From positions 1,612,001 to 1,676,000 of the forward strand of contig NZ_CP150300.1 of assembly GCF_037991315.1 (NCBI RefSeq): DNA of 64,000 bases. The letters run 5' to 3'. The DNA comes from Paenibacillus sp. FSL H8-0079. Its GTDB lineage: Bacteria; Bacillota; Bacilli; Paenibacillales; Paenibacillaceae. A program made the translations under genes and the position numbers. Shown here piece by piece: positions 46,413 to 55,796 of this stretch. The stretch's first letter is position 1. The number at the start of each line of letters is the position of its first letter. The notes under the pieces are model-generated. The model saw nothing but the letters and a program-made list of their open reading frames with translations, was not told where the DNA came from and ran no database searches.

Positions 46413-48113
46413 TTAGTTTATTTTGAAATTCTTCATGGCGGATTGCAGTTCTACAGCTTGTTCATGCAGATGTCGTACCGTATTCGAATGTGAATCCATC
46501 TCGCTGAGCTGAAGATCTGCTGTTGAAGCAATCTGTAGCATGCTCTCACGGGATTTGGACGTAATCTGTGCCGTTTCTTCAACAGACGCACTCACTTCTT
46601 CTGCACCAGCGGATACTTGTTGCGTAGAAGCCGAGACAGTCTGGATGGTCAGGTTGACGTTCTGAATCAGTTCATTCAGTTGCTGGAAGGCTGAACCTGC
46701 CTGTTGAACGACAGTCGTACCTGAACCAATCTCCTTGGTTACGCGGTTCATGGCGTCAACCGAGCGTTCAGCGTCTTCACGAATGGTACCCAGATAATCC
46801 GAAATTTCCTCGGTGGCTGTCTTGGATTGCTCCGCAAGTTTGCGAACTTCTCCAGCAACGACAGCGAATCCGCGTCCGTGCTCTCCAGCACGTGCTGCTT
46901 CAATGGAGGCGTTGAGTGACAGCATGTTAATCTGTTTGGTAATTTCAAAAATGGAAGCAACAATGGTGCCGATGGCTACTGAACGTTCATTCATGGTCTC
47001 AACATACCGCAACGATTCGCTTGCTGTCTGACCTACACGTTCCATCTGCTCCACGGCATTCTGAGCCAGTCGGTTACCATTAACCGCCTCATTGGCTGCT
47101 TCGCCAATTTGCTCAGACACTTCAGCAGAAGAAGAAGCGATATGCATGATACCCTGCGTAATTTCTTCCATGGCTCTGGCGTTCTCGGATGCACTGGAAG
47201 CAATACTGATGCTGCCTTTTTCTGCATCTTCAGCAGAGCGGCTGGAATTACGAACCATACCGGACATCGATTCAACCCGCTGAAGCAGGTCATTGGAGCC
47301 TGCCACAACTTCATCGGACGTGGACAAGGCACGGCTAATCATTTCTTTCAGGTTATGCGTCATCGTCTGGAAGCTTGCGGCAAGCTGGGCAATTTCATCT
47401 TTACCTTTGATCTCTAGCTCAGCGGTCAGATCGCCTTGGGATATTTGTTTGCTATGTTGAACGAGCTTGATGATGGGTTTGGTTACTCTTTTGATCATAC
47501 TAGTTGAGATAAGCCAGCCGAGCACGAAGACTAATGCTGTAATTCCAAGACATAACCAGAAGACCTGAGTAATCTTGTCTTGAATGAACTGGGCGTCCAT
47601 GCTTACAGCCATAATCATATTACTTCCTGCGATTGGCATAAAGGCTGCTTTATGTACACCGAAGGAATCGGAGTAGACCTCGCTGATTACCATTTGTTTG
47701 TTCTCGATCGCTGCATTCATTGTGGGTTCTACATTAATCTCATCTTGGGCTTTCATGCCTGAGGAAGAGTTGGCAACCACCACTTTGGCTGATCCATCTT
47801 GAATGGCAACAATGTATGCGGCATCCAGATTGTGTTCTTTTGCTTTATCTGCGAGATACGATTCTACGGTCATAGCAGCACCTTCGGAACCGGCTCCGCC
47901 ACTCTGTACCTGTAGAATCTTTGAAGCAGAGGTATTCTTGTATATATCCTGAATGGACGTGTTTAGGACTTTATCGAACTGCGGGAGCACGTAACTTTGA
48001 ATAATATTCATCGATACGGCATAAAAACTGATACTGAACAACAGGGAAGCAACCAGCAAGACGAGGAACAAAGTGCCTCTAATTTTACCGGCAACGGTGC
48101 GATTACGAAACAT
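46413..48113 (-). CDS. methyl-accepting chemotaxis protein
   Basis: 566 residues, ATG at 48113 after AAAGGATG. Membrane span 1 at ~12-34, an extracellular sensor domain (~35-182) of single-Cache type, span 2 at ~183-207, HAMP (~208-262), then the long signalling coiled coil. The signalling tip with '[20 protein letters not shown]' and '[16 protein letters not shown]' is complete. No C-terminal CheR-binding pentapeptide is visible. Ligand unknown. Confidence 0.93.
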
Positions 48114-54467: not shown

Positions 54468-55197
54468 TTACTCTGCGCTCTCCTTCGCAAGTGTGGCAAT
54501 GCGCTGAGCGGGATCATTCGTGTACTCTCCACCGTGATAACAGAGAACCTTATTGAGCTTAAGGTTGGTCAGTTTCTGCAGGCTTCGCAGCGCTTCAGGC
54601 ATGTCCGGTGTCGCGGGTGGCGCAGGGCCAACCAGTTCATCATCAACCACACGAAGTTCATCGGCAGCGAGCAGGAACTGTTGCTCTCCGAAATACAGGC
54701 TGATATGACCTGGGGTATGTCCCGGTGTATGAATGACCTGTGTACCGCCTTGAAGGGGCAACAGATCTCCGTCCGCCAGCGTTCTGCTGATGTTCACTTC
54801 CGGCAGCTGCAAGAGCAGTTGGTCTGCCAGTGCCAAAACGGGTGCGGGCAGCAAAGCACGACGTTCAGGCGTGAATTTGATCAAAGGTTTCTCACCAGTT
54901 AGATACGGAATTTCATCGGCATGTGCCCAGATTTCCAGATCAGGGATGGCATCCAGAAGAGCGCCTAGGTTACCGATATGGTCGATGTCCTGATGGGTAA
55001 TAATCACACGTTTGACGTCCGAGAGCTGTACATCCTCTTGTTCCAGTGCGGATTGAAGTTCTGCAAATTGTCCAATCATGCCCGTATCTACCAGGGTAAC
55101 GCCATCTTCGTCATGAAGCATGACGAAGATGGCGTTACCCTGAAGGTGTAGGAATATGAAGATGTAGTGCAGTAATCGAAGTTGTTGGATGGCTCAT
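54468..55197 (-). pseudogene. metallo-beta-lactamase-fold hydrolase gene with a +1 frameshift near its start
   Basis: From ATG 55195-55197 the minus strand reads 'MSHPTTSITALHLHIPTPSG' and then hits TAA. One base shift at the GGG run (55138-55140) restores 'NAIFVMLHDEDGVTLVDTG' and a full metallo-beta-lactamase fold: 'THQDIDHIGN' (HxxxDH-like), 'HTPGHTPGHISLY' and 'CYHGGEYT'. The total, 730 bases, is one base too long for a 242-residue protein. Starting at the ATG at 55121 gives only 217 residues and loses the first two strands. It is either a true frameshift, a sequencing error or a recoded gene. The lesion is in a perfect palindrome. Confidence 0.75.
55092..55142. repeat. perfect 24-bp inverted repeat inside the MBL-fold gene
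   Basis: Bases 55092-55115 are exactly complementary to 55119-55142, with only AAG between. Both arms lie in coding sequence (residues around NAIFVM and HDEDGVTL), and the extra base that breaks the reading frame is in the right arm (the CCC at 55138-55140), paired with GGG in the left arm. Confidence 0.95.
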
Positions 55198-55203
55198 GGT
55201 TAT

Positions 55204-55228
55204 CCGGACCGTAGTCCGGTACACCTCC
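55204..55228 (-). promoter_or_regulatory. ribosome-binding site and hairpin ahead of the MBL-fold gene
   Basis: On the minus strand an AAGGAGG site (55224-55230) is followed by CCGGAC-TACG-GTCCGG (55204-55219) and then ATG at 55197. The linear distance, ~26 bases, is too long, but folding the 16-base hairpin would bring it to about 10. The hairpin could thus bridge the site to the start codon, or serve another purpose. Confidence 0.4.
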
Positions 55229-55253
55229 TTTTCTTTTTTAGCGATGATTGTTG

Positions 55254-55796
55254 TTATTCAGGGCGATTATATTTCAAGTGTTTTCTATATTTTTTTACCG
55301 TATGGAGTAGCGCTTCGAACGTTTCTTCTTCATTACTGCCGTCTTTAACGATGGATACAAACGAGAAATTATCATGAACGAGCTTGTTTCTCGTCTGAAA
55401 CACCTGACTAAGGGACTCAGCGAATTGTTCTTTTTCGGATTCAAGGGCAATGAATTCTTTACTAAGTTCGGCCTGGATGATCTCCATATTGGAACGCGCA
55501 CGGTAGGCAGGAGTTTTCATCAGCTGGGTCGAATTAAACTTTTTCTGATATACCTGTCTATACAATTGATTTAACATTTGTTCAGTAATGGCGCATAGTT
55601 CGATGACCAGTGAAGCATATCTTCGGTTTTTGCGTTTTCGGGTGAGCTCACGTGTTTCTTCGTCGTCCAAGATACCGTATTTTTCATACAGCGTAGAGTC
55701 ATCTTTCTGCAAGATCTCCTGATATTCCTGTTCGAGTAGTGCGATTTCAAGTTTGGCTTGTCGTTTAACTTTTTTAAAATCTTCTTTGGTCAGCAT
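55254..55796 (-). CDS. HEPN-like small helical protein
   Basis: 180 residues from the ATG at 55796, six bases after GGGAGGAC. All-helical and highly charged. Residues ~60-160 contain 'ELCAITEQMLNQLYRQVY' and, after a gap, 'VFQTRNKLVHDNFSF'. The RNKLVH stretch fits the Rx4-6H motif of HEPN domains, which are often RNases in toxin-antitoxin or defence systems. A coiled-coil-like N-terminal part (~1-55) is rich in Lys/Glu. The HEPN call rests on motif and helix pattern only. No partner nucleotidyltransferase gene is nearby. Confidence 0.55.
   Translation of the reverse strand: MLTKEDFKKVKRQAKLEIALLEQEYQEILQKDDSTLYEKYGILDDEETRELTRKRKNRRYASLVIELCAITEQMLNQLYRQVYQKKFNSTQLMKTPAYRARSNMEIIQAELSKEFIALESEKEQFAESLSQVFQTRNKLVHDNFSFVSIVKDGSNEEETFEALLHTVKKYRKHLKYNRPE

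Follow-up and report, generated by a model that had tools for sequence, protein, structure and literature searches.

A probable short-range template switch behind the perfect 24-bp palindrome that breaks an MBL-fold gene in Paenibacillus sp. FSL H8-0079

In Paenibacillus sp. FSL H8-0079 a gene of the MBL-fold family is broken by a perfect inverted repeat, whose 24-nt arms are 100% complementary and enclose a 3-nt loop (55092-55142; positions are those of the window, the whole stretch of 64,000 nucleotides that was analysed). It is very probable that this palindrome was made by a single short-range template switch, the event known as quasi-palindrome mutation, which would have taken place in this lineage after its split from the lineage of Paenibacillus sp. 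SZ31. The features of the locus are collected in Table 1.

Table 1. Positions of the palindrome, of its parts and of the surrounding gene features in the window
Feature	Position	Strand	Remark
Shine-Dalgarno AAGGAGG	55224-55230	-	
Hairpin CCGGAC-TACG-GTCCGG between Shine-Dalgarno and start codon	55204-55219	-	Same spacer in SZ31 and orthologues
20-codon ORF, from the original MBL-fold start codon to the stop made by the event	55135-55197	-	ATG 55197, TAA 55135-55137
Left arm (overwritten arm)	55119-55142	-	Contains the new 12-bp block
Left arm, CAGGG	55138-55142	-	Also in SZ31
Left arm, TAACGCCATCTT	55126-55137	-	New
Left arm, seed CGTCATG	55119-55125	-	Also in SZ31
Loop CTT, 3 nt	55116-55118	-	
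Right arm in gene orientation (copied arm)	55092-55115	-	Same sequence in SZ31
Right arm, seed CATGACG	55109-55115	-	
Right arm, template AAGATGGCGTTA	55097-55108	-	
Right arm, distal CCCTG	55092-55096	-	
Remnant MBL-fold frame, 217 codons	54468-55121	-	Internal ATG (55121) inside the palindrome

The state before the event is preserved in SZ31 (locus L031, genome G080), the nearest named relative, which belongs to the same species (99% identity over 217 residues; 96.6% identity of the strain pair over 273,582 aligned bp) and has an intact gene of 244 codons without the palindrome. The two sequences are identical up to CAGGG and again from CGTCATG onward. Between these points SZ31 has AAAAACCCCATATTCCC (17 bp) and the window has TAACGCCATCTT (12 bp), which amounts to a net loss of 5 bp and brings an immediate stop. 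The reverse complement of TAACGCCATCTT is AAGATGGCGTTA, found just past the loop in both strains, so that the 12-nt block was already present, reverse-complemented, in the pre-event sequence. Moreover, both switch points lie in microhomology that is present in SZ31, namely CGTCATG/CATGACG (7 nt) and CAGGG/CCCTG (5 nt). An ordinary alignment of the site shows 8 differing columns.

A first-pass annotation of this DNA had reported the inverted repeat with its 3-base centre, a GGG at 55138-55140 and a minus-strand ATG with an upstream AAGGAGG whose frame stops after 20 codons. All of these are present as described, with the qualification that the AAGGAGG stands 26 nt from the ATG and that a separate small hairpin lies between them. 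It had also held that one extra base at the GGG separates the short frame from the long one. This is right as frame arithmetic but wrong as history, since 12 bp replaced 17 bp and the GGG run is common to SZ31, the window and near relatives (e.g. L002-L011, L031-L038) and is therefore ancestral; the addition of a single G at this run was accordingly rejected. In the same way, the alignment of orthologues gave the less complementary arms that had been expected, SZ31 having no palindrome, but no difference at the GGG in near relatives.

The suggestion that template switching had perfected an imperfect palindrome of the ancestral gene and so broken the frame was borne out by the quasi-palindrome of SZ31. 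Folded as single-stranded DNA, the SZ31 segment forms a bulged hairpin (-11.1 kcal/mol, z -3.8, none of 200 shuffles as good), and the imperfect inverted repeat thus existed beforehand; the window segment forms a perfect hairpin (-29.7 kcal/mol, z -14.8), and the segment of a further relative, as in L005/L034, reaches z -2.9 with 1 of 200 shuffles as good. The right seed CATGAC is common to SZ31 and the window, while nearly all other close loci have CGTGAC (L042 also has CATGAC). Since the substitution is shared with SZ31, the seed hairpin of 7 bp must already have been complete when the event took place. Taken by itself, the replaced block of 17 bp shows no clear prior complementarity to the arm, as 1220 of 20,000 shuffles scored as well; the complementarity signal sits in the whole arm with its seeds and not in the middle block.

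The palindrome appears to be confined to this genome. The exact 51-mer was found in none of the 60 other loci compared (L002-L061, in which some genomes occur twice and of which L031-L055 are the 25 named orthologues from Paenibacillus). A search for the derived 39-mer that allowed up to 2 mismatches found it in one of 75 genomes of the genus, which is this one. This speaks for a single event on a single branch, with the sister SZ31 in the ancestral state, and gives no support to a conserved recoding site; a recoding site was among the other explanations named in the first-pass annotation. When the protein of P. polymyxa was used as query, 62 of the 75 genomes gave a match at E <=1e-50, and the match begins at residue 1-11 in 60 of the 62 and at residue 26 in this genome. 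The remaining one (G035) is a fragment, a separately degraded orthologue in which a 144-aa ORF (L172 734-1168) matches the P. polymyxa protein at residues 44-157 only. No inverted repeat of at least 12 bp at short distance was found in the G035 stretch searched, which indicates a loss different from the palindrome event.

The rarity of the palindrome was assessed in 464,000 bases of this genome, made up of 20 spread stretches of 20 kb and the window, which as the given stretch was not chosen at random. Among the 22 perfect inverted repeats of this sample (arm of at least 12, loop of at most 15) it is the longest. The next longest arms, found in 4 cases, have 17 bp, and 3 of the 4 lie outside ORFs of at least 100 aa. 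A comparison of 364 kb of this genome with 340 kb of SZ31 gave 273,582 aligned bp in 39 pieces of at least 500 bp, in which differing columns form 772 clusters of 3 or more. At the palindrome cluster the nearby reverse complement that covers all differences measures 24 bases, and at the next cluster 11. Plain reversal reaches 11 and plain complement 9 as controls, and when the segments were shuffled 100 times (653 clusters of span at least 7, taken from the side of this genome only) the spans were 7 to 10 and none longer. These margins show a mirrored patch that is real and isolated. There was no sign of a mutator or of a general assembly fault in the 274 kb aligned with SZ31. A marginal mirrored patch was seen near contig position 1,659,025 (window 47025-47031), where 3 substitutions in 7 bases on the SZ31 side have an 11-base reverse complement nearby, a level equal to that of the controls.

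The course of events that we propose starts with the substitution common to SZ31, which gave the perfect 7-bp hairpin CGTCATG-CTT-CATGACG, with its 3-nt loop, as part of a longer inverted repeat that was imperfect. At this seed the nascent strand would then have folded back with its 3' end, been extended by 17 nt on its own new arm, and regained the proper template by way of the 5-nt microhomology CAGGG/CCCTG. The product is the one seen in the window, where 17 bp have given way to 12 bp that are an exact mirror image of the other arm, making the 24-bp palindrome perfect, shortening the gene by 5 bp and introducing the stop; the full-length enzyme would be lost, with at most a shortened protein remaining at low level. 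Such a product is predicted by the Ripley/Lovett model (PMC7202029; PMC6357072) and also fits the four-point template-switch model (PMC7954356, PMC8794818).

The window and the 11 sampled stretches up to 3.42 Mb have a positive GC skew, the 9 stretches from 3.73 Mb on a negative one. The sign places the window in the replichore whose plus strand is made as the leading strand, and the gene would thus be head-on. As the copied arm and, after it, the 3' end of the seed lie on the plus strand, a fold-back of the leading strand would be the simplest course, the strand being assigned from the skew. Template switching induced by 5-azacytidine in E. coli is described as stronger on the leading strand (PMC6357072). 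Switching between strands would leave the same product as a fold-back within one strand.

An ATG aligned with the original start codon is present in all 25 named Paenibacillus orthologue loci, 27 codons before the position of the internal ATG in 24 of them and 30 codons before it in L041. Of the 244 residues of the SZ31 protein, the first 27 are absent from the remnant frame. That this long frame belongs to the metallo-beta-lactamase-fold family, as the first-pass annotation had it, was confirmed with Pfam Lactamase_B (PF00753; E 1.6e-28, 100.4 bits against a gathering score of 22.7), the match starting at profile position 13, and PF19583 is also above its cut-off. The remnant retains the THQDIDH metal-binding motif and, further on, the His and Asp columns that are invariant, and in these it agrees with the MBL-fold metallo-hydrolases, from which it differs in the absent N-terminal 27 residues. 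All 22 NCBIfam matches of the 217-aa remnant were below their cut-offs, those to beta-lactamase models included (class B, 44.8 against 100 bits for the core model and 44.9 against 240 bits for B3), and an identity as beta-lactamase or lactonase was therefore excluded by these models. Relatives are annotated as 'MBL fold metallo-hydrolase' or 'putative metallo-hydrolase YflN'.

The full-length enzyme is probably no longer made, and a restart at the internal ATG may yield at most a shortened protein at low level. The broken gene is most likely a young pseudogene. The remnant and the SZ31 gene have 22 nucleotide differences, of which 9 fall on this lineage, 11 on that of SZ31 and 2 are undecided when polarised by the majority of 7 outgroup loci. 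Of the 9 changes on this lineage 8 are synonymous and 1 is nonsynonymous, a ratio unlike that of long neutrality, which suggests either that the event is recent or that the truncated protein still works. No near second copy was found among the MBL-fold matches listed for this genome, the best having about 42% identity over part. Likewise no near-identical 217-aa form was found among 79 proteins at E <=1e-60, which are clusters at 90% identity and may hide such a form (P0001 has 137 members).

Other origins of the palindrome have to be weighed against the template switch. The restriction to one genome and the fact that palindromes are hard to sequence could point to an artefact of assembly or library, in which a fold-back molecule or a consensus error made the palindrome in the deposited sequence only. 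We regard this as unlikely, because the consensus would need to lose the true 17 bp entirely, the genome is a single contig (completeness 99.99%, contamination 0.09%), no other perfect palindrome with arms above 17 bp was found in the 464 kb and no second such event in the 274 kb aligned with SZ31, and a template switch would be expected to leave junctions like these, of 5 and 7 nt. An identical mirrored patch between microhomologies would also result if a double-strand break, and not an event at the replication fork, had been repaired with snap-back synthesis, as in synthesis-dependent microhomology-mediated end joining. The bases directly beside the patch are nevertheless unchanged with respect to SZ31, and the patch starts exactly at a hairpin seed with a short loop, the usual site of template switches, which makes repair of this kind quite improbable. 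That several independent small mutations gave the palindrome by chance is scarcely credible. The 8 differing columns of the ordinary alignment might be read in that way, but all differences jointly match the reverse complement of the neighbouring arm, where controls reach 11 bases at most, and no partial intermediate of the replaced block was found among the aligned loci.

A different question, compatible with an origin by template switch, is whether the 20-codon ORF, the hairpin and the downstream ORF now work as a regulated unit, that is, as a functional leader-hairpin device or recoding site. Several features would suit such a device: the strong Shine-Dalgarno with its spacer hairpin, the 13 nt from the new stop to the internal ATG, the excess of synonymous changes in the remnant, and an RNA fold over the palindrome of z -7.36, matched by none of 200 shuffles, where a somewhat longer segment of SZ31 gave z -0.87 and was matched by 37 of 200. 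A single template switch might then have given rise, in one step, to a leader-peptide control element and so to a translational unit that did not exist before; we hold this to be highly improbable. In such an element the stop of the 20-codon leader would lie near the base of the 24-bp stem, the terminating ribosome would open the stem and restart at the AUG near its tip, and the short enzyme would be made only when the leader was translated. The arrangement was seen in no other genome searched and is not conserved, the internal ATG lies in the stem near the tip with no Shine-Dalgarno at the usual distance, and the lost N-terminal part contains a proline (P26 of SZ31) that every one of the 28 intact sequences aligned has in common. 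This last point in particular makes control by a leader less probable, and a regulated unit of any of these kinds is in our opinion very unlikely. A search of the region 54900-55400 against Rfam gave 7 matches with E <=1, none of which reached its gathering score; the highest-ranking are to microRNA models, which fit any perfect hairpin.

The mutation at this locus, very probably a template switch, is a real and well-resolved one of a known class, which breaks an ordinary gene and offers a clean natural example. In E. coli, quasipalindrome mutations are described in which an imperfect inverted repeat is perfected by copying an arm from the nascent strand, and lacZ reporters with an 18-bp quasipalindrome revert when one of its arms templates a deletion of 4 bp (PMC7202029, PMC6357072). 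Unlike those reporters, the present event is a natural one in a non-model strain whose sequenced sister shows the pre-event state; it put 12 bp in place of 17 bp, has 24-bp arms and inactivates the gene. The four-point model likewise describes a reverse-complement patch between switch points and a perfect hairpin made in one step, but its studies concern microRNA and rRNA genes and great ape genomes (PMC8794818, PMC7954356), while here a bacterial protein gene is broken. Coding genes of S. cerevisiae likewise provide inverted-repeat arms made identical within coding DNA on terminal branches (PMC8604942). According to its description, that study ignored indels and dropped gene sets with premature stop codons, so that an event like that of Paenibacillus would have been outside its reach (PMC8604942). 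Our search of the literature on bacterial template-switch mutations found no paper on Paenibacillus or on this MBL gene.

As far as these reports describe it, quasi-palindrome switching has so far been known mainly from reporters and from comparisons of yeast, ape and RNA genes (PMC7202029, PMC6357072, PMC8794818, PMC7954356, PMC8604942). Here the states before and after are available within one species, the switch points are exact to the base, and a prior substitution can be seen to have completed the primer hairpin. A plain alignment shows a small frameshift and a few substitutions, and pipelines would file it as such. A search for mirrored patches over pairs of strains would show how often bacterial pseudogenes begin in this way.

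The spacing of the Shine-Dalgarno upstream of this gene is also unusual. The 26 nt to the original ATG would shrink to about 10 nt once the hairpin is folded out, and in most members of the family examined the Shine-Dalgarno lies 25-38 nt from the start codon, a distance at which a conserved split ribosome-binding site would matter for the prediction of start sites. In a survey of 104 loci (52 distinct spacers, 7 loci skipped, some genomes occurring more than once), all 46 distinct spacers of at least 20 nt fold at -5 kcal/mol or better, and for 41 of them at most 15 of 300 shuffles were as good. The 5 spacers of at most 14 nt have no hairpin, the single 15-nt spacer folds weakly, and orthologues without a spacer hairpin have a normal Shine-Dalgarno spacing of 6-10 nt. 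Long spacers occur in the genera g1, g29, g23 and g34 and short ones in g1, g21, g23 and g34. The stem sequences differ by group (CCGGA/TCCGG; CCGGGA/TCCCGG; GCCGG/CCGGC; GCTTCGGA/TCTGAAGC). In a polymyxa-like group of 8 rows 96.6% of the cells are paired, against 33-53% when the alignment is slid; in these 8 rows the changes are one-sided throughout, no pair having changed on both sides, and covariation was no better than in shuffles. It is the slid controls, the spacing and the stems that differ between clades that argue for the predicted hairpin.

Judged from sequence, the MBL gene family thus combines a distant Shine-Dalgarno with a hairpin that would restore the spacing, and in this it resembles T4 gene 25 with its split ribosome-binding site. 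In phage T4, a structure between the Shine-Dalgarno and the AUG is likewise described, for genes 38 and 25, as shortening an overlong gap, which in gene 25 goes from 27 to 11 nt (PMC3014915). Unlike the T4 cases, the candidate presented here is a chromosomal gene, spread over four genera of one bacterial family. Among papers on split ribosome-binding sites and on hairpins between Shine-Dalgarno and start, no chromosomal case like this was recognised by title, which is a weak negative. A detector built for such sites covered 744 kb of this genome (780 ORFs) and returned 9 rows with a best score of 6.5, a set in which the broken MBL gene cannot appear. Nor is the detector specific to the MBL gene, as one other ORF among 381 of SZ31 scores equally high (8.5). 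This ORF, of 328 aa and on the minus strand, has an A+T-rich 8-bp stem after GGGAGG.
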